This document shows positions 122-30,079 of a stretch of DNA of 64,000 nucleotides, piece by piece. Both the position numbers and the translations under genes were made by a program. The DNA comes from Pseudomonas oryzihabitans. GTDB taxonomy: Bacteria; Pseudomonadota; Gammaproteobacteria; Pseudomonadales; Pseudomonadaceae. The DNA is taken from NCBI RefSeq assembly GCF_024652905.1, contig NZ_CP102428.1, positions 1,934,501 to 1,998,500 on the forward strand. Direction: 5' to 3'. Below the pieces are notes generated by a model. It was not told the DNA's origin. It did no database searches and saw nothing but the letters and a program-made list of their open reading frames with translations. How positions within the stretch are numbered: the stretch's first letter is position 1; each line of letters opens with the position of its first letter.

Positions 122-425
122 TTTGCTGGTGAAAAAACCCAAGGTGATAGTCCTTAGCGCGAGAAAGGAGGGATGCAGCCATAGGAACCTGGGGTCGAAA
201 ACAGGTTCAAGGCAAGCCTCTAGAGCGCGGATCGCCGCCCATTTCACGTAATAGGCCCGGGACAATTGCGTTTCCAGATATGAAGAGGCCCGTTGCGCAG
301 GCCGTTACCTCGCCAAGGCAGCAGCGCCTGGCTGGTTGCCACGTCACGGAGGATATCGACCCGTTCAGCGAACATCCGCGCCCTGGTGCGGTCCGACGGA
401 CACCACGCCCTTCCGGAGCACTGCC
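122..425. other. Divergent intergenic region, no gene seen
   Basis: This 304-bp stretch lies between two divergently transcribed genes and so should carry both promoters. Open frames here are short and overlap antisense frames with no recognisable family. I see no RNA gene or repeat. The Shine-Dalgarno sequence of the right-hand gene (GGAG, 7 nt before ATG 426) is at its right end. Confidence 0.6.
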
Positions 426-1064
426 ATGACCGCCACCCCGCGCGTTCGTCTGGATGTCTGGAGCGACTACGTCTGCCCCTTCTGCTACCTGGAGCTGCCC
501 CAGCTGGCGCGCCTGCAGGAGGAATTCGGCGATCAACTGGCCATCGAGTGGCATGCCTTCGAATTGCGCCCCGAACCCACGCCCACCCTGGATCCCGCCG
601 GGGATTATCTGCGCCGGACCTGGGACCGGGCGGTCTATCCCATGGCGGCGGAATACGGCATGGTGCTGCGGCTACCACCGGTCCAGCCGCGCAGCCGTCT
701 GGCCCTGGAAGCAGCGGAATTCGCCCGCGACCACGACCGCTTCGACGCCTTCCATACGGCGGTCTTCCAGGCCTTCTTCGAAGAGGGGCGCGATATCGGC
801 GGGCGGGAGGTGCTGATCGATCTGGCGCGCCGCAGCGGTCTCGATGGCGAAGCCTTGCAGGCCAGCCTGGCGCGCGGTGACCACACCGACGTGGTGCTGC
901 ACGCCGAGGATCGCGCCGAAGCCCTGGGCATCACGGCCGTACCGACGCTGCTGCTGCGTTCCGCGCAGGCGCCCATCGAACAGGCGCGGGCTCTGGATGG
1001 AGCGGTACCCTTCGCCCAGTTGGCGGCAGCCGTCCGGGCGCAGCTGGACGCGATCCAAGCCTAG
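426..1064 (+). CDS. DsbA-family (FrnE-like) thiol oxidoreductase
   Basis: The 212-aa protein has the DsbA-type thioredoxin fold with a helical insertion, seen in FrnE and 2-hydroxychromene-2-carboxylate isomerase relatives. The active-site motif CPFC lies at residues 17-20, directly after strand beta-1, and a cis-proline loop of the type AVPTLLL lies near residue 180. No signal peptide is present, so it should act in the cytoplasm, probably as a dithiol oxidase/isomerase. The start at 426 is chosen because GGAG sits 7 nt upstream and the longer frame adds only non-conserved residues. The stop overlaps the deformylase stop by 4 nt in a convergent arrangement. The substrate is unknown. Confidence 0.85.
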
Positions 1065-1600
1065 CGCTGGGCGGCCGGCGTCAACTCGGGGAACAGCACC
1101 TCGGTAAAGCCGAAGCGGGCAAAGTCCTGAATCCGCGAGGGATAGAGCCGACCGATCAGGTGATCGTACTCGTGCAGCACCACCCGCGCATGGAAGCCTT
1201 CGGCCTGCTGGTCCACCAGGTTGCCCGCGCCATCCACGCCTCGATAACGGATTCGCCGCGGCCGCGGTACCTCGCCGCGCAGCCCGGGGATCGACAGGCA
1301 GCCTTCCCAGCCCAGTTCTTCGCTGGCATCAAGGACCTCAATACGCGGATTGATCAGTACCTGCAGCGGTACCGGCGGCGCCTCGGGATAGCGGGCATTG
1401 CGCTCGAAGCCAAAGACCATCAGCTGCAGGTCCTCACCGATCTGCGGGGCGGCAAGACCCACGCCACCCGCGGCGGCCATGGTATCGAACATGTCCTGGA
1501 TCAACGCCTGCAGCTCCGCCGAGCCGAGGCGCTCGGCGGCTATCGGCGGCGCCACCCGCAGCAGCCGGGGATCACCCATCTTCAAAATGTCGCGAATCAT
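1061..1600 (-). CDS. def: Peptide deformylase
   Basis: The 179-aa protein carries all three deformylase motifs: [10 protein letters not shown] (residues 46-55), EGCLSIPG (99-106, metal-binding Cys) and HEYDH (143-147, two metal-binding His plus catalytic Glu). It removes the formyl group from the N-terminal methionine of nascent proteins. It stands alone, without the fmt-rsmB-trkA neighbours of the housekeeping def locus, so it is probably a second copy. The C-terminal tail is short. The gene ends tail to tail with the DsbA-like gene, with the stops overlapping. Confidence 0.9.
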
Positions 1601-9043: not shown

Positions 9044-9877
9044 TTACTCGGAAACGGACACGGCCAGCTGATAGGCCGTGTACTTGCGAATGTTGATCAC
9101 GCCGGTGTCGAACATCAGGTATTGACCCTTGATGCCCAGCAGCGTGCCTTCCACCACGGGGGTCTTTTCCAGGTCGTGGCTGACCACCTTGGTGGGATAG
9201 ACCGTGACCGGATAATGGATCTCGATGGGCGCCATGTCGACCACCGGCTGGATCGCCTGCAGGCCGAAACGGCACTGGAGATCGTCCAGGCCCTGGGCGC
9301 AGGCATCGAAGATGCGCTCCCGTACCGCCACCAGGTCTTCCGGCGCGGCGACGCCCTTGAGCATGGCGCGCCAGTTGGTGCGGTCGCCCACCTGGCTACG
9401 CAACACGTCCTCCACCAGGCCGGACTGCTGGCGGGTAGCGACCCTCAGGATCGGCAGCGCCTGATAGGCGCCCTGGTCGATCCAGCGGGTGGGCAGCTGG
9501 GTGGCGCGGGTGATGCCGACCTTGAGGCCCGAGGAATTGGCCAGGTAGACCACGTGCGGCACCATGCAGTGGGCTTCGCCCCACTCCGGCTGGCGGCAGG
9601 TGCCGTGCTCGTAGTGACACTTTTCCGGACTGACGATGCAGCTGTCGCACTGGGCCAGGGCGGTGAAGCAGGGATAGCAGTAGCCCTGGCTGAAGCTCTT
9701 GCGGGTCTTGCGACCGCAATGGGTGCAATGGATGGCGCCCAGGTATTCGAGGCGCACGCGGCGGCCGATCAGCGGGTTGACCGGCACCTCGCGCTCATCG
9801 AGGCGGAAGGCATAGTTGACGGGGTCGGCCAGGGTCACGGCCATCTTGCGCAGGGCGCCACGGCCCAGTTCGGTCAT
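9044..9877 (-). CDS. DUF2797 protein with zinc-ribbon cysteines
   Basis: The protein is 277 aa from the chosen start. Several CxxC-type pairs lie in the first 100 residues (CTHC, CYPC, CDSC and nearby Cys/His) and suggest a structural zinc site. A following block with VVYLANSSGLKVGITR resembles the GIY-YIG nuclease-like core described for this family; whether it cuts DNA is unknown. The start at 9877 avoids 18 non-conserved residues, but its ribosome binding site is weak, so it is uncertain. It is found beside yeaC and pepN in Pseudomonas, and probably transcribed with pepN. Confidence 0.8.
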   Translation of the reverse strand: MTELGRGALRKMAVTLADPVNYAFRLDEREVPVNPLIGRRVRLEYLGAIHCTHCGRKTRKSFSQGYCYPCFTALAQCDSCIVSPEKCHYEHGTCRQPEWGEAHCMVPHVVYLANSSGLKVGITRATQLPTRWIDQGAYQALPILRVATRQQSGLVEDVLRSQVGDRTNWRAMLKGVAAPEDLVAVRERIFDACAQGLDDLQCRFGLQAIQPVVDMAPIEIHYPVTVYPTKVVSHDLEKTPVVEGTLLGIKGQYLMFDTGVINIRKYTAYQLAVSVSE

Positions 9878-9909
9878 CACGGTAGGAATTTCTCGATCTC
9901 TAAAAGACG

Positions 9910-9942
9910 CGAGGTGCCTCTTCGTCACCAAAGGGCACCTCG
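9910..9942 (-). terminator. Possible terminator between yeaC and the DUF2797 gene
   Basis: A 9-bp perfect stem (CGAGGTGCC / GGCACCTCG) with a 15-nt loop is followed on the minus strand by a short TTTT tract. The loop is long and the T tract short, so termination may be partial. Confidence 0.45.
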
Positions 9943-9961
9943 TCGGGTAGGGCGTAGTCGA

Positions 9962-10225
9962 TCAGTGAATGGCGTCGGACTTGAACAGGATGTTCTCGAT
10001 GGGCACCGACTTGGAGGCGCATTCCTGAGGGCCCATGTAACCGGTCCGCTGGTCTTCGGGCAGGTGCTTGGCCTCGTAGGCGATCACCGCCTGCAGACAG
10101 AGCTCGACCTGGTCACGACTGAGTTTGCGGCCGTCGGGCCACTTGCCGATCTCCACGGCCAGCTTCAGGCCGTCGTAGATATCGGGGGTGATGTTTTCCA
10201 GCATCTGGGCGAAGGATGTCGACAT
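9962..10225 (-). CDS. yeaC: YeaC family protein (DUF1315)
   Basis: The 87-aa cytoplasmic protein matches YeaC: an N-terminal helix with FAQMLENITPDIYDGLK, a central GKWPDGRKLSRDQVELCLQ stretch, and a C-terminal CASKSVPIENI segment. The family has no assigned activity. It stands at the head of the yeaC / DUF2797 / pepN run, with an 84-nt gap to the next gene that holds a possible weak terminator. Confidence 0.85.
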   Translation of the reverse strand: MSTSFAQMLENITPDIYDGLKLAVEIGKWPDGRKLSRDQVELCLQAVIAYEAKHLPEDQRTGYMGPQECASKSVPIENILFKSDAIH

Positions 10226-10734
10226 GGGTCGCTCCGGACTCTAGTGAACCGCCAGTTTACCGGGCTGCCCGCCGCGGTGCACCTGGCCTGGCTCAATGGC
10301 GGTCATAGGGTGTGTTTCGGCTCGGGGCCCGGAGTCGCGGTAGGTTGGGTTGAGACGGCTCCATCGTCGAAGCCCAACGGTGGCGATACCGGATTGGGCT
10401 GTTGGGCTTCGCTGCGCTCAACCCAACCTACGCGGGTGCGTATGCCGTCGCGTGGAAAACGGCGCAGCCTCTTTCTTCGAGTAGTTCGAGGCAAGGGTCG
10501 CCTTGGCGGACTGGCACAGCAACGAAAAAGTTTCTCGACCTCAGCGCTCGGCGAACGCCAAGATCACTTTGCCACGGTGTTTCGCTGCTACCAGCCCCCC
10601 TGTTCGAGGTCCAGAAGACCGCCGGCGTCCAGCGCCTTACGCGTCTGATCCCACGCCGTGTTGCCCAACGTGCAACGCCGCTGAACCCTGGCACCCCGCC
10701 GCCATCAGAGCAGGAGGCCTTTTCTGGAGACCCC
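10226..10734. other. Gene-free region with repeat
   Basis: Between yeaC and pdeM, 509 bp carry one copy of the GTAGGTTGGG paired repeat (10340-10431) and a short GCGTGGAAAACGGCGCAGCC motif (about 10450) that recurs near 38720. The frame open upstream of pdeM shows no family and its start is not supported. GGAGA lies 6 nt before the pdeM ATG. Confidence 0.6.
10340..10431. repeat. Paired palindromic repeat, locus 2
   Basis: The element is bounded by GTAGGTTGGG on the left and CCCAACCTAC on the right. The left palindrome is the form with GACGGCTCCATCGTCG, the right one the form with CTTCGCTGCGCTCAA; about 20 nt lie between them. Confidence 0.85.
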
Positions 10735-11394
10735 ATGCCTGCCTATCACCCTCTCATCCTTGCCGGTGTCGAACTCTGGCTGCTCGCGGAAAAGGCGATC
10801 TACTGGCCGGCGCGCCAGGCGCTGCTGGTGGCGGACATCCATTTCGGCAAGGCCGCGGCGTTTCGGGCACTGGGTCAGCCGGTACCCCACGGCACCACAG
10901 CGGGCAATATCGCGCGACTGGACAGCCTGCTGGCGCGCTACGACTGCCGCGAGATCATCTTTCTCGGTGACTTCCTGCACGCGCCGGAATCCCGCGCGCC
11001 CCTGACCATGGACACCCTGGAGCGCTGGCGGGAACATCAGGCCCACCTGCGGCTGCTGTTGATCCGCGGCAACCACGACCGCCGCGCGGGAGATCCACCG
11101 GCCGCCCTGGGTATCGACGTGGTAGCTGAGCCGCTGGAACTGGACGGCCTGTCGCTGCAGCACGAACCCGATCCCCATCCGCGACTGCCGGTGCTGGCCG
11201 GACACATCCATCCGGCGTTTCGCCTGCACGGCCGCGGTCGTCAGGCGCTACGCCTGCCCTGCTTCTGCCTGGAAAACGATGAAGTGCTGATCCTGCCGGC
11301 CTTCGGGGACTTCACCGGCGGGCACCTGCTGGCGCCCGATCCGGCGCGACGGATCTTCGTGGTAGGGGATGGCGGTATCTGGCCCCTGCGCTAG
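10735..11394 (+). CDS. pdeM: PdeM-type metallophosphoesterase
   Basis: The 219-aa calcineurin-like phosphoesterase has the metal ligands of the ligase-associated DNA damage response endonuclease PdeM: DIHFGK (about 36-41), GDFLH (about 81-85), GNHD (about 118-121) and GHIHP (about 156-160). In the known pathway PdeM works with an ATP-dependent ligase, a Lhr helicase and an exonuclease; none of these is adjacent here. GGAGA lies just before ATG 10735. The TAG stop (11392-11394) is part of the CTAG end of a MITE-like element, so an insertion has replaced whatever followed. Confidence 0.85.
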   Translation: MPAYHPLILAGVELWLLAEKAIYWPARQALLVADIHFGKAAAFRALGQPVPHGTTAGNIARLDSLLARYDCREIIFLGDFLHAPESRAPLTMDTLERWREHQAHLRLLLIRGNHDRRAGDPPAALGIDVVAEPLELDGLSLQHEPDPHPRLPVLAGHIHPAFRLHGRGRQALRLPCFCLENDEVLILPAFGDFTGGHLLAPDPARRIFVVGDGGIWPLR

Positions 11395-24985: not shown

Positions 24986-25062
24986 CGGAGCGTAGCGCAG
25001 CTTGGTAGCGCGTCTCGTTCGGGACGAGAAGGTCGCTGGTTCGAATCCAGTCGCTCCGACCA
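24986..25062 (+). tRNA. proK: tRNA-Pro (anticodon CGG)
   Basis: The 77-nt tRNA has a 7-bp acceptor stem CGGAGCG / CGCTCCG, anticodon stem-loop TCTCG-TTCGGGA-CGAGA with CGG at 25020-25022, the GTTCGAATC T arm and an encoded CCA. It matches the layout of E. coli proK. Its 3' end is duplicated at about 30004, marking an integration site. Confidence 0.95.
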
Positions 25063-25124
25063 ATCTGATCCGCCAGGATCACCCCAAGGCCCGCCTAGTG
25101 CGGGCTTTGTTGTTTCTGGGGTTT
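25049..25124 (+). repeat. Left attachment-like repeat at the tRNA-Pro 3' end
   Basis: From AGTCGCTCCGACCA through the terminator and beyond, this stretch is repeated imperfectly at 30004-30079. The longest perfectly matching core is about 22 bp around the terminator stem, starting at the CCCCAAGGCCCGCC side. It is a likely attL. Confidence 0.75.
25089..25110 (+). terminator. Terminator of tRNA-Pro
   Basis: A 6-bp GC stem (GCCCGC / GCGGGC) with a 5-nt loop CTAGT is followed by TTTGTTGTTT. It begins 26 nt after the tRNA. Confidence 0.75.
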
Positions 25125-25842
25125 GGTTGTCCGCTTGGATCGCCCAGCTCCGCTCTCCTGAATCGACGGTTTGCGACCGGGAACGCCTAGAACCTGTCCT
25201 GCCATACTGCTCGACGAAACGACGGCAGCCGCCGCGCCAGCCGACGTGGATCCGCCCGAGCAGACCTTGCTTGTGCTTGACCTCACGACCTACGAGCTGA
25301 CCGGCCGGGCAACAAGCGTCCTCGCGCTGAACCTCCAGCGGGCCGGGGCCCAGGCGCTGCTCGAGCAGCAAGGCCAGCAGCGCAGCGCCTACTCTTCCTA
25401 GCCAGCGACAGGCCACCTACGGGCGGCCTTTGCGTGTCCGGCCGCCGAGGGTCACGTCGACGCGCTACGCGCCTTGCAGGGAGTCTGCCTAGATCAGAGG
25501 GGTCGGCCTGCTGAATGCATAGCGGCAGGAGCGTCACAGGCTGCGGAACCGACTGACTGCACCGATCACCGCACCCTGGCCAGCGAAAGGCCAAAGGCGG
25601 GCGGCATGGAGGTGTCCGGGCAACCGGTCCTACACCTTGGCCGCCAGGGGCCGCGCCGGAGGGCTCTGCACCCGGCGCGCGCCGTCGTCACCCCGCCACG
25701 CCTGCGGGCTAAACATGTCGCTTTTTCTGCACCCCTGCATCAAGCCTAGTGACGCGGTAGTACTGGTGCGCCAAAAGGTTTGAATGACTCCAGATTGCCT
25801 GCGAAACCTTGCAGCTAGCGCAAGCGGATCTCCATGCCAACA
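25111..25842. other. GC-rich island edge with no firm gene
   Basis: These 732 bp lie between the tRNA and the defence operon. The first ~630 bp are GC-rich like the host chromosome; AT content rises after about 25750. One plus-strand frame (25171-25401, with LLVLDLTTYELTGRATSV) has coding-like codons but no convincing start or family. I looked for a tyrosine or serine recombinase remnant near attL and saw no recognisable motif. Confidence 0.5.
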
Positions 25843-27582
25843 CTAGCCATCAATCCAGCTGTCAAAGTCAGCATCGCTTGAATTAGGCCTCGGAATCGCT
25901 TCTGGCGATACGATCATGCTAGGCATTGAGACGCTACCGCCGAAGATCATCGCCGTGCGCCGGGGAAGCCCAGTAATACGCTTCAGTTCTCTTCGGTCAG
26001 ACCACTCTGAAGCCGCCGAAACAGCCGCAATATCCTTTTCAGATGTCAACCTAAACACGACCCAATTGTTGCACTGAGAAAGAACAGTAGGCGATATTTC
26101 AGATGGGCGCTGAGTACTAAGCCATAGCGCCAACCCAAATTTCCGACCTTCCTTTGCAAGCCGCTCATAAGCTAGAGAAGCCCCCATATTGTCTTCTACG
26201 GATCCCGTAGGACGCATGTAGTGGTGCGCCTCCTCCAAAACCAACAAAGTAGGGATTTTCTCATCCTGACCTCGTTCAAACAGCTCATAAGCATAAAGCT
26301 CCAAAAGGGAACCTAATACAAAAGGCGAAAGATCTTGAGGTAATCTTCGAAAATCAATTACATGGATTCGCCAAGTGCTTTCGTGAGTACCAAAAAGCTC
26401 ACCCACAAGCGCCTTTGATTCCTGCGACCAGTTAAGCGGTCGCCCATCCGCTTCACTACCATGAACGTCAACCACCTCACAGAACATCGGATCCTCAACC
26501 AGCCGGTTTATTCGAGTTATAAGGGGAGAAATGTTGGAGTAGGCAAATGCATTACGTTCCTGCCCCCCTCCCCTAACAGGCTGAATACCGTGGCTCTCGG
26601 CAACGAGCGAAGCCAAAGCGTTCATATGAGGCCAGCAAAGGGCGTCTCGCGCCGCACCTGATCTTATTGCATTGATCTTGGTATGCGCGATATCCGCGCC
26701 GATGGGCCTGCAATCACTAAAAAGAGTAGCGTTCTGATCTTCAACTAGGCCTGCCCCTGCTTGGGTAGGAAACCATCTAACCTTGTGCAAATTCTCTAAT
26801 GCAAATGTCAAAGCCGGGCGCTGAGTTTTTTCGCTCGGAACTAGAAGGCGATGCAACCCATGTCGACCCAAGGCATAGTACGGAATTTTAAATGAACCTG
26901 GCTCGCCCCCACCCATGGCAGTCTTTTTCACAGCGCCAACAGGTAATCCCTCTAAATCAAAGGCATTTGTATACTCACCATTTAAATCGAAAATCACTAT
27001 TCGCGATCGCGGCAATCTTACAAGCTGCTGCAAAATTGCTGCAGTAAAGCAGCTTTTTCCCTGACCAGAGCTTCCTAATACAGCCACATGCCTTGCAACC
27101 AGGTCGGTTATTCCGATACTCAAATCACCGCCACCACGCAAATCTCTTCCCAAGCAAACTTTCGGACCAGGCTGTTGATTTCCACACAACACCGATTGAA
27201 GCTCATCTAAAACAAGCGGGAATACTTCGACACCCAGAGCGGGAGTCGCAACGCATTCGTTAAAAAAACTTAACTCACCGGAAGCTCTCTCCAAGCGTCC
27301 AACAACTACGCATTTTATATTCCTCAACGGATCATTATGCTGTGCATTTGTACCGATACCATAACGATGCGCTTCCCTAGGTTCATCGAAGCTTAAAGAC
27401 ATGACCTTAAGGACTAGCGAATTACTTGCGTAGGGCACAAGCAGCAAGCTGCCAACCTCTGTAACTCCAGATATTCCGTACTGGTGGGATGTAAGATGAC
27501 CTTTGTGAAGGTCCAGCAAATTTAGGGTTACTTCGACGCCATCAACGCGTACGACGTAGCCAATCGGCATACGACCGTTCAC
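25843..27582 (-). CDS. HerA-like FtsK/HerA-clade ATPase (defence partner of SIR2)
   Basis: The 579-aa HerA-type hexameric ATPase (DUF87) begins with a beta-barrel HAS domain (about 5-65), followed by the Walker A loop GSSGQGKS (170-177), Walker B IVIFDLNGEY (195-204), a second acidic strand LLVLEEAHHYM (446-456) and the STQRPSEI sensor/arginine stretch (489-496). It starts with GTG, overlapping the SIR2 stop (GTGA); an ATG four codons later is an alternative. In known SIR2-HerA systems the ATPase assembles with the NADase and activates it or cuts DNA during phage infection. The gene is visibly AT-richer than the flanks, a sign of transfer. Confidence 0.9.
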   Translation of the reverse strand: MNGRMPIGYVVRVDGVEVTLNLLDLHKGHLTSHQYGISGVTEVGSLLLVPYASNSLVLKVMSLSFDEPREAHRYGIGTNAQHNDPLRNIKCVVVGRLERASGELSFFNECVATPALGVEVFPLVLDELQSVLCGNQQPGPKVCLGRDLRGGGDLSIGITDLVARHVAVLGSSGQGKSCFTAAILQQLVRLPRSRIVIFDLNGEYTNAFDLEGLPVGAVKKTAMGGGEPGSFKIPYYALGRHGLHRLLVPSEKTQRPALTFALENLHKVRWFPTQAGAGLVEDQNATLFSDCRPIGADIAHTKINAIRSGAARDALCWPHMNALASLVAESHGIQPVRGGGQERNAFAYSNISPLITRINRLVEDPMFCEVVDVHGSEADGRPLNWSQESKALVGELFGTHESTWRIHVIDFRRLPQDLSPFVLGSLLELYAYELFERGQDEKIPTLLVLEEAHHYMRPTGSVEDNMGASLAYERLAKEGRKFGLALWLSTQRPSEISPTVLSQCNNWVVFRLTSEKDIAAVSAASEWSDRRELKRITGLPRRTAMIFGGSVSMPSMIVSPEAIPRPNSSDADFDSWIDG

Positions 27583-28850
27583 GGAGCAACCTCACGCAGT
27601 TGATCTTTCAACGCTTTTGTCAAACGCTGAAGGTTTTCATCATAAATTGCTGGATCAGGTAGTTGGCTGGCTAACGCATCTACATAGGCGCCATTGCCAC
27701 CACCCACCACGGTAACTCTAGGATTACTTAGCGACAGAATCTTTCTAAGAGCTTTGGGTAGTGCTTGAGAGGTCGCATTGCCATCAAAGCCTGGGAAATA
27801 GATCATCACCTGAAGGGTAGGATTTAGTAGAGCAGACCTAATCAGCCTGTTTATATGCTCATCTCCGAAGCTATACCCACAAACTATCAAGGCAGCTTGT
27901 GGCTTAGCCATAAACTCTGCAAACCGCCTAAACATCTCACCCAGGACATAACCAACGGTGTCAAAATACTTGGCAGCACGGGGCATAACCATAAGCCCAA
28001 GATCTTGAATGTCATCATCTTCAAGAAAAGCCTGAATTTCATCGCGAGCCAAAACCGCAGGAATTTCAAAAATCTCACCACCTTGCGCACACCACGCCAT
28101 AGATCCGTGAAGTTTTGCAAGATATATATTAAACACACCAAATCTAGCCTCTCCACGCGCCTGGACATTTCTAAACCCCATGTCAAAGCTGTGAGGAGAA
28201 AACCTTCTAGAATGAGTACCAAGAAAACCATTGATCACCTGGAGATCAATTGACTCTGCCGCCCATTCGATAGCCAGATCATAGTTAGTTGTAAACACCC
28301 ACGGCGAAGGCTGAGCAGGCTGACGAGCTGAAACAAGTTTCTGCAAAATCGTACGATGATTAAGCAAGGCCACGTCATCGCTTTCAACGCCTGCTGGTGA
28401 TTCCCACCAAGAATTTTCCAGCAAAGCAGCTTCAACCACTAGCCGGTATAGGCTTTTGCGAGCATCTTTTAAATCAGCTAGATTTTCGGCAGCTACAACT
28501 TCATCAATATCTATTGGATTAGGACCGTTAATTACACACTGCCTGTCCCATTCTATAACAGCAACTTCTAGACTATCGAGAAGCCTTTCCATATTAGGCA
28601 TCTTTCTGTTGTCTGTTGAAGTTGCGTCATTGTCAACGAATCCAAATGCTTTCAGCCAATTTGCATGAACCTCGAATTCATCTACAAATCGATCCCAAAC
28701 AGATGCCATAGTCATCCCACCACAAGGCACGGACGCCCCTGCTCCAAGCAGAAGACCTGCGTTTTCCAATCGCAGCATCGCTGCCAGATATGCTTTTAGC
28801 TCCAGCTCGTCAGTTATGATTACATTGCCGCGAATAGCTATAATAGGCAT
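27579..28850 (-). CDS. SIR2-family NADase (defence effector)
   Basis: The 423-aa protein has a SIR2-like domain: LLLGAGAS (33-40) for the NAD loop, FTTNYD (186-191) and KLHGS with catalytic His248, and VCGYSFGDEHIN (323-334) closing the fold. The known Asn and His are both present, so it should be active. In SIR2-HerA and related systems (Thoeris ThsA, DSR, SIR2-APAZ) such domains deplete NAD during infection. The start has GGAG-AAGGA directly before the ATG. It lies 32 nt after the two-TM gene and overlaps HerA by 4 nt. It is AT-rich and probably foreign. Confidence 0.9.
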   Translation of the reverse strand: MPIIAIRGNVIITDELELKAYLAAMLRLENAGLLLGAGASVPCGGMTMASVWDRFVDEFEVHANWLKAFGFVDNDATSTDNRKMPNMERLLDSLEVAVIEWDRQCVINGPNPIDIDEVVAAENLADLKDARKSLYRLVVEAALLENSWWESPAGVESDDVALLNHRTILQKLVSARQPAQPSPWVFTTNYDLAIEWAAESIDLQVINGFLGTHSRRFSPHSFDMGFRNVQARGEARFGVFNIYLAKLHGSMAWCAQGGEIFEIPAVLARDEIQAFLEDDDIQDLGLMVMPRAAKYFDTVGYVLGEMFRRFAEFMAKPQAALIVCGYSFGDEHINRLIRSALLNPTLQVMIYFPGFDGNATSQALPKALRKILSLSNPRVTVVGGGNGAYVDALASQLPDPAIYDENLQRLTKALKDQLREVAP

Positions 28851-28882
28851 TCCTTCTCCACATACAACTTAGCAATTAATAT

Positions 28883-29830
28883 CTAGGATTTCTGACATAT
28901 TTTTGCAATCTTTTCACGCCAGGCTGCTGGATCTTCACCCTCAGCAAATGAATCTTTTTTAATCTGGATGAATTCGTCATCACTAACAGCGCCTTTGGAA
29001 ATATCCCGAATCCAATTTTCAATAGACTTCCGGGATGCACCAGACAACGGCGACACGTACAGCATGGACTTCAATGCAAGCAAGTATTTGTATTGATCTT
29101 CTTCCGGAACCTTAGAACATTCGGAAGCAAGATAATCTGCAAAGCCTCTGTAGGACAATTCAGCACCGGAGAACCTGACCGCACGCGCCTCTGTTGAAAG
29201 ACCGGAGGAATCGCATATAAATGCGCACAACTCGTTGTTCTCCAAACTAACCCCAGATGTTCCACCAAGGTGCCGGGAATTTCGATAGCGAATTAGGAAG
29301 CTCGACAGCAGAGCAGCAAAACCCATAGCATAAAAAACATAGTCGATCGAATCGTTTTTAAACAAAAGCGAGCTAGAGCTAGCCGCTGATAGATTTGTAG
29401 CCGTTACACCAGGAGCTCTAACAATGATCTGCGGCTCTCCTCTAACAGATCCCATTGATGCTAGAAAAGAAACCTTTACCCTCTCACCTGGATTAAGCAA
29501 GTCAGCGTAAAGCGCAGTAAACCCCTGCTCGCTTTCTTTTTTCAGCTTCACGCCTGGCGATGCCTCGACCTGGACCTCCGCAAAATCGGCTCCTGGCATA
29601 CCGATCCGAACATAAGTTTGCGCTATTTCTTTTTTGCCAGAGTTTTGCACATCAATTAGGAAAATCCTTTTTGACGATGAAGCTCCTTCTAAAGAGGGCC
29701 CGCCAGATACTGTATAAGCCAACTCTGGCTCTTTCGTCGTTAGCCAATAAGTAGCAACACCAGCTGCAATTGTCGCGATACAGGTAATAATTGCTGTTAT
29801 AACAGCGGGCTTGATACTGGACTCGCTCAT
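28883..29830 (-). CDS. Two-TM protein of unknown family, first gene of the defence operon
   Basis: I do not recognise the family. The 315-aa protein has TM1 at about 8-30, then a ~130-residue beta-rich domain with CARDB/Ig-like features (FLIDVQNSGKKEI ... LLNPGERVKVSFL), TM2 at about 163-182, then RYRNSRH and a ~130-residue helical C-terminal domain. Positive charges after TM2 put the C terminus in the cytoplasm and the beta domain outside. AAGGA lies 7 nt before the ATG. It is 32 nt upstream of SIR2 on the same strand and equally AT-rich. It may be a membrane sensor or anchor for SIR2-HerA, or a separate passenger. Confidence 0.75.
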   Translation of the reverse strand: MSESSIKPAVITAIITCIATIAAGVATYWLTTKEPELAYTVSGGPSLEGASSSKRIFLIDVQNSGKKEIAQTYVRIGMPGADFAEVQVEASPGVKLKKESEQGFTALYADLLNPGERVKVSFLASMGSVRGEPQIIVRAPGVTATNLSAASSSSLLFKNDSIDYVFYAMGFAALLSSFLIRYRNSRHLGGTSGVSLENNELCAFICDSSGLSTEARAVRFSGAELSYRGFADYLASECSKVPEEDQYKYLLALKSMLYVSPLSGASRKSIENWIRDISKGAVSDDEFIQIKKDSFAEGEDPAAWREKIAKICQKS

Positions 29831-29857
29831 AAGACCATCCTTGTCAGGAATTACTTT

Positions 29858-29886
29858 CCACTAGGTGAACCTCCTAAAGCTAGTGG
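29858..29886. promoter_or_regulatory. Operator-like dyad before the defence operon
   Basis: A perfect 7-bp inverted repeat, CCACTAG and CTAGTGG, is spaced by 15 nt. It lies 28 nt upstream of the first operon start. The loop contains AGGAGG on the minus strand but no start follows it closely. It could be a repressor site; no regulator gene is present in the island. Confidence 0.45.
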
Positions 29887-30003
29887 CAAAAATGCTACAA
29901 CGCAAACGGGATGGGAAATGCCGTGTATGCCAGCTTGTATGCGAGCGAATAGAGTTATCAAAAAACCCTTAAAACACGGGCATTACAGCGATATTTTTGG
30001 ACG

Positions 30004-30079
30004 TAGTCGCTCGACCAATATGATCCGCAAGGGTTCCCCCAAGGCCCGCCTAGTGCGGGCCTCGTCGTTTCCGGGATTT
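30004..30079 (+). repeat. Right attachment-like repeat (tRNA-Pro 3' end copy)
   Basis: The stretch from TAGTCGCTCGACCA to the GGGATTT after the stem copies 25049-25124 with scattered differences, including one missing C in the tRNA part. It contains the same GCCCGC-CTAGT-GCGGGC stem (30044-30060). It is a likely attR of the island. Confidence 0.75.

Follow-up and report, generated by a model that had tools for sequence, protein, structure and literature searches.

A SIR2-HerA anti-phage pair carried by a small tRNA-Pro island in Pseudomonas oryzihabitans, with a membrane-protein gene of unproven role upstream

Introduction

A 64,000-nucleotide stretch of Pseudomonas oryzihabitans DNA (contig NZ_CP102428.1, positions 1,934,501 to 1,998,500; here called the window) carries three adjacent minus-strand open reading frames (ORFs) for a membrane protein (p1), a SIR2 protein, and a HerA protein, and the locus raises the question of whether p1 is a working part of the SIR2-HerA anti-phage system or only its neighbor. 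The first-pass annotation of this DNA had suggested that p1 may be a third component of the complex. The answer that we consider probable is that a two-gene SIR2-HerA system forms the cargo of a small tRNA-Pro island and that p1 is a passenger or an optional helper. We know of no settled account of the SIR2-HerA trigger; a membrane partner, if true, would be a direct handle on it.

The SIR2-HerA pair and the organization of the locus

Both proteins of the pair pass the equivalog cut-offs of their NCBI families, SIR2 with 591.4 bits on NF042942 (cut-off 500) and HerA with 850.5 bits on NF042943 (cut-off 800), and the PADLOC calls (SIR2 and HerA) agree, which upholds the first-pass recognition of an anti-phage SIR2-HerA pair. 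The best sequence matches in the PDB are 8j4u_A for SIR2 (E 4.9e-82) and 8j4u_M for HerA (E 3.8e-109), from an entry that we take to be the E. coli SIR2-HerA complex. SIR2 contains GAGAS at position 36, TTNYD at 187 (Asn 189), and KLHGS at 246 (His 248); the GAGAS region aligns with 8j4u_A, and Asn 189 and His 248 lie within stretches that do so as well. HerA contains the Walker A motif GSSGQGKS at 170, LLVLEEAHH at 446, RLAKEGRKFG at 474, and STQRPSEIS at 489. The residues and motifs named at first pass (GAGAS, the NYD asparagine, and the catalytic histidine of SIR2; Walker A/B and an arginine stretch in HerA) could thus all be located. Judged by these matches, the pair is a fresh member of the known SIR2-HerA (Nezha-type) anti-phage system, sited in a tRNA hotspot.

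Published relatives indicate what such a pair does. For the Nezha system of Vibrio cholerae, the available part of the report gives the SIR2 active-site Asn and His and herA as required, and it describes NAD depletion and phage protection as demonstrated (PMC11559045); in work on Streptococcus thermophilus, sir2 and herA cloned alone gave phage resistance, according to the excerpt available (PMC11514479). Since the cut-offs are passed, the catalytic regions align, and the V. cholerae and S. thermophilus relatives protect, we infer on good grounds that the present pair depletes NAD and defends against phage.

In the ORF list of the window, p1 and SIR2 are separated by 32 nt and SIR2 and HerA overlap by 4 nt. 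The GC content is 0.459 for p1, 0.456 for SIR2, and 0.490 for HerA, against 0.664 for the rest of the window (outside 25743-30011); the initial description of three same-strand genes with 32-nt and -4-nt spacings, AT-richer than their flanks, therefore holds. Immediately 5' of the SIR2 start codon stands GGAGAAGG, a plausible ribosome site of this gene. Between 25600 and 30100 neither promoter-like sites (4, against a mean of 5.4 in shuffles) nor terminator-like sites (2, against 4.8) exceed the shuffles, so that a shared p1-SIR2-HerA transcript is suggested by the spacing alone. Upstream of p1, the minus strand at 29844-29875 has AGGAGG and after it a GTG reading frame of five codons, which is probably due to chance but could be a leader.

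Table 1. Features of the island and its three cargo genes, by window position
Feature	Coordinates	Strand	Remarks
tRNA-Pro (CGG), island insertion site	24986..25062	+	ARAGORN; same tRNA beside the LysE-side flank at the empty site L066
Left direct-repeat copy (3' end of the tRNA plus following sequence)	25057..25124	+	68 nt, 85% identical to 30012-30079; BLASTN 65/76
Left slot border, conserved, with CCTGC-type repeats (CCTGC at 25701, 25734, 25798)	25640..25815	+	Aligned in 6/7 same-genus islands, not L081
HerA, hexameric-translocase partner of the pair	25843..27582	-	579 aa, GTG start; NF042943, PADLOC HerA, PDB 8j4u_M
SIR2, predicted NAD-degrading effector	27579..28850	-	423 aa, ATG start; NF042942, PADLOC SIR2, PDB 8j4u_A
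p1, transmembrane helix - beta-sandwich - transmembrane helix - helical tail, role unproven	28883..29830	-	315 aa, ATG start
Right border, paired GTGTATGCC-type repeats, second copy imperfect	29923..29943	+	GTATGC at 29925 and 29937; pair in 6/7 islands, not L081
Right direct-repeat copy, adjoining the LysE-type gene	30012..30079	+	68 nt, 85%; also next to the LysE-type gene in several genomes of the genus

The tRNA-Pro island and its cargo slot

Between tRNA-Pro (CGG) and a LysE-type gene lies an island of 4.95 kb, whose cargo slot is taken up exactly by the three genes. Both marks of a tRNA-integrated island, a direct repeat at either end and an empty site in a relative, are present. Placing the GC-rich segment 25178-25742 outside the island, as host DNA, was considered and rejected, as this segment matches inner parts of the relatives' islands. 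The GTGTATGCC repeats of the right border are putative integrase arm sites. The island has no integrase of its own, all of its ORFs outside the three genes being 161 aa or shorter, and it lacks the DUF927/primase-type gene found with the integrase in the longer island L080; it looks like a shortened form in which the ends and the cargo have been retained.

The same site was sought in 13 genomes of the genus, that of the window included; the flank probe matched 12, and the island count covers these genomes except G001, G002, G005, and G012. One genome (G008, locus L066) has the empty site, where tRNA and LysE-side flank adjoin directly and the repeat occurs in a single copy. At each of seven further loci, a single stretch contains both tRNA-Pro(CGG) and the flank, separated by 1.6 to 14.2 kb. 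In six of these seven the left border can be followed to its end at window positions 25739-25742, after which come spaced CCTGC repeats to about 25815, and the same number carry AT-rich cargo between the borders; PADLOC, run on a subset of the cargo ORFs, gave matches in five of the six. The cargo is Hachiman HamA/HamB in L080, a kinase with a partner (PDC-M71A/B) in L082, two SIR2-like proteins (PDC-S25; weak SIR2) in L083, a GmrSD-type protein with a methyltransferase in L084, and a helicase in L086; in L085 the one of two proteins that was scanned had no PADLOC match. The remaining locus, L081, contains a cation-efflux gene and a regulator only. Besides its cargo, the L080 island contains genes for an integrase and a DUF927/primase-type protein, and ORFs like these two (first 50 residues compared) occur in L083 and L084. 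tRNA-Pro(CGG) is an island hotspot in the genus.

Two of these slots deserve separate mention. The SIR2-like genes of L083 (L083:2533-4182:- and L083:1115-2077:-) adjoin each other and are different, one being PDC-S25-like and the other weakly matched. In L085 (16709-18748 as oriented; L085:2045-3193:- and L085:1154-2035:+) a 382-aa protein faces a 293-aa protein; the former has a weak ANAPC3/TPR-type match in Pfam and none in PADLOC, and the latter has no Pfam match and a hydrophobic start. This cargo is a defense candidate. The tRNA-Pro site offers a compact natural test bed, in which close relatives hold different predicted defense modules between the same two borders; comparison of the slots can reveal what moves as a unit and highlights candidates such as the L085 cargo. 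Among the open-licence literature searched, no published name was found for this slot.

Structure and relatives of p1

The p1 ORF is not a chance frame, since it has a family of 32 proteins by sequence search (E<=1e-3) and 49 by profile search. The build proposed at first pass, two transmembrane (TM) segments, a beta domain, and a helical tail, is borne out by the AlphaFold2 model. The sequence has two hydrophobic stretches, and the model (mean pLDDT 79.5, pTM 0.41) places a helix at 6-31, nine strands in 37-146, a helix at 161-183, and seven helices in 198-314, with a pLDDT of about 87-94 in most blocks of the tail past residue 200. The beta-sandwich is predicted to lie outside the inner membrane and the helical tail in the cytoplasm.

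Library searches place p1 in no family of Pfam, PADLOC, NCBIfam (all at E<=1), or PHROGs. Among 33 relatives of p1, Pfam gave six families with one member each (E 0.031-0.084); these single-member matches were dismissed as noise. As regards the described 2TM effectors of the CBASS-type 2TM-beta kind, p1 itself matches no Pfam, PADLOC, or NCBIfam model, and one of the 33 relatives has a SLATT_fungal match in Pfam (E 0.082). By tblastn p1 had no match in plasmids or phages, a pattern search of viral contigs gave 80 stretches and no relatives among them, and the best sequence match among solved structures had an E value of only 0.85. Fold searches were made with the outer domain (residues 32-149). 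The top viral match, an unnamed 168-aa protein (E 8.8e-09), was set aside at an rmsd of 12.2. No existing name for the p1 family was found in the databases or the open-licence literature searched.

The closest relative of p1 is P0001 (94% identity, 5 member sequences); in the tree the two branch off by themselves (length 1.43, SH-aLRT 100) at a point where long branches meet, which calls for caution in reading it. A branch of this length would result from recruitment to a new task and also from simple divergence. A more distant relative, P0049 (431 aa), combines a p1-like TM-beta-TM half with a long tail that is probably coiled and has weak helix-turn-helix (HTH) matches, which indicates that the p1-type outer module is reused with other tails; a search with the outer domain of P0049 returned only P0049 itself.

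Genomic contexts of p1 and of SIR2-HerA

Genomic context is known for three of the 49 profile matches, with P0001 among the other 46: the three genomes are the window's own, Massilia niastensis (G424), and G807, which matches Massilia sp. Dwa41.01b. In profile searches of genome samples that overlap one another, p1 was found in the window's own genome only among 57 relatives, 369 genomes of the class, and 234 of the order, and in 2 of 392 genomes of the Massilia family, the same two being recovered among 62 of the Massilia genus. A pattern search of the contigs of 84,980 species yielded one p1 locus, that of M. niastensis.

Neither Massilia genome (0/2) has a match to the SIR2 family NF042942 at E<=0.001. 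The p1 neighbors in M. niastensis are metabolic by ORF reading, with one side short as p1 lies near a contig end; in G807 they are a 328-aa protein with no Pfam match and a TMEM175-type channel gene, and no recognized defense gene was identified beside p1. Both copies lie in AT-rich patches (about 0.43-0.49 GC) of GC-rich neighborhoods; p1 therefore looks mobile without SIR2-HerA. The 328-aa protein (L018:9805-10791:+), which shares the AT-rich patch of p1 in G807, by eye seems to be of TM-beta-TM build too.

The reverse comparison gives the same picture. By tblastn, p1 is absent from all ten other SIR2-HerA loci (L002, L003, L007, L008, L009, L020, L021, L022, L023, and L037), of which L022, L023, and L037 have just about 1.5 kb of upstream sequence; the ten come from a set of 64 loci, in which a further nine with HerA-like matches (two being the window, seven distant) stand outside the count. 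Repeated occurrence of p1 next to SIR2-HerA in genomes that are not related, set beforehand as the test of a three-part complex, was not seen, with two p1 contexts known outside the window. The p1 homologs that could be placed stand in unrelated contexts, the outcome named beforehand as speaking against such a complex, on a thin sample of two. The first-pass view of p1 as the third part of the complex accordingly finds no backing in either direction.

Close spacing is not peculiar to p1. In L021 and L037 the gene upstream of SIR2-HerA is HsdS; judged from the aligned start it overlaps by 4 nt in L021, and in L037 it lies 17 nt from the first aligned codon. L023 has an Mrr-type gene (at about 60 nt), L002 and L003 each have a prophage replication gene, and the remaining loci have mobile or unrelated genes there. 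Since the HsdS neighbors stand equally close, a short gap to the upstream gene is ordinary for SIR2-HerA, and the 32-nt gap was rejected as proof of a three-part system, the L021 and L037 pairs lying within about 20 nt of HsdS. In two unrelated genomes SIR2-HerA comes straight after a gene for type I restriction specificity (HsdS at 9823-11274, minus strand, in L021 and at 291-1472, plus strand, in L037), an observation in its own right; sir2/herA have also been placed among restriction-modification systems, in the part of that report available (PMC11514479).

What p1 may do

The reading that we hold probable remains that of a two-gene system with p1 as passenger or optional helper. The comparison with relatives establishes the island itself, through its repeats, the empty site, and the swapped cargo; arriving together is not working together, and islands of this kind gather modules. 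Neither p1 nor SIR2-HerA appears to need the other, since their contexts outside the window are separate. The mobile membrane-protein gene p1 would be transcribed ahead of SIR2-HerA; upon infection HerA and SIR2 would form one complex, in which SIR2 would destroy NAD and halt phage growth, as expected from the published relatives, and p1 would most likely act alone or as an optional helper. Several points weigh on the other side: p1 is the sole companion of SIR2-HerA in the cargo slot, at a distance of just 32 nt; the slot in relatives seemingly holds, as a rule, one module of one to three genes, which suggests that p1 arrived together with SIR2-HerA; and the outside p1 contexts number two only, with the closest relative, P0001, not among them.

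It is possible, if somewhat less than an even prospect, that p1 is an independent membrane defense or stress gene, an additional one-gene function on the same transcript as SIR2-HerA. Its relatives in AT-rich patches of two genomes with no match to NF042942, the richness of the island site in predicted defense genes, and P0049, with its p1-like N-terminal half on a coiled-coil/HTH-like tail, are consistent with such a role, but no match in Pfam, PADLOC, NCBIfam, or PHROGs ties p1 to defense, and its G807 neighbors, the TMEM175-type gene and the Pfam-less protein, include no recognized defense gene.

It is unlikely that the system is a three-part variant with p1 as the inner-membrane anchor or trigger of SIR2-HerA, one that would detect infection through its outer domain or tail and bind SIR2 or HerA through the tail. 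The shared strand, narrow gap, and similar GC content would fit it, as would the fact that p1, SIR2, and HerA are the whole cargo between two conserved borders, and the AlphaFold2 model gives p1 a confidently folded, membrane-attached tail. The separate p1/P0001 branch is what recruitment of p1 to a new task would lead one to expect, but long branches meet at that point. The contexts speak against the variant from both sides (0/10 and 2/2, as above), and related pairs give protection with no third gene, according to the available parts of both reports (PMC11559045, PMC11514479). Were the variant true, a mobile membrane-protein family that serves other partners elsewhere would be the source from which p1 was recruited; that p1 brings the NAD-destroying complex to the site of phage DNA entry at the inner membrane and so lets it act at the moment of entry is likewise doubtful. 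No three-part SIR2-HerA system with a membrane protein was found in the open-licence literature searched. That p1 only keeps SIR2-HerA toxicity in check, as an immunity or dosage-control protein would, is in keeping with its first place in the presumed transcript but very improbable, as ten other pairs manage without p1 and its outer-domain fold offers no pointer to such a role.

Comparison with known systems

The pair itself belongs with SIR2-HerA (Nezha; GAO_19 SIR2/HerA; NF042942 and NF042943), the cut-offs of which it passes and the conserved residues of which align, and it shows the same SIR2-HerA gene order with a short overlap as the annotated pairs L007 and L009. It differs in the extra membrane-protein gene directly upstream, seen at none of the ten other loci. 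For the outer domain of p1, the CLIPPER domain of a fibrillar adhesin (PDB 9ifr), integrin, and CBM2-type beta-sandwiches share a common fold at 6% identity, which gives no functional indication.

tRNA-anchored defense hotspots as such are already known from the available part of PMC10250203. In cDHS1 of Pseudomonas aeruginosa, as described there, a proline tRNA likewise marks a site that takes varied defense genes of lower GC content, but cDHS1 lies by pheT and ihfA, whereas the site in the window lies between a molybdopterin-gene cluster (by ORF reading) and the LysE-type gene and has a bordered slot. The cargo slot of P2-type prophages (E. coli L002 and L003) is also a bounded slot with SIR2-HerA beside genes of an integrative element; its borders are prophage replication and portal genes, whereas those of the slot described here are tRNA repeats and short sequence borders.

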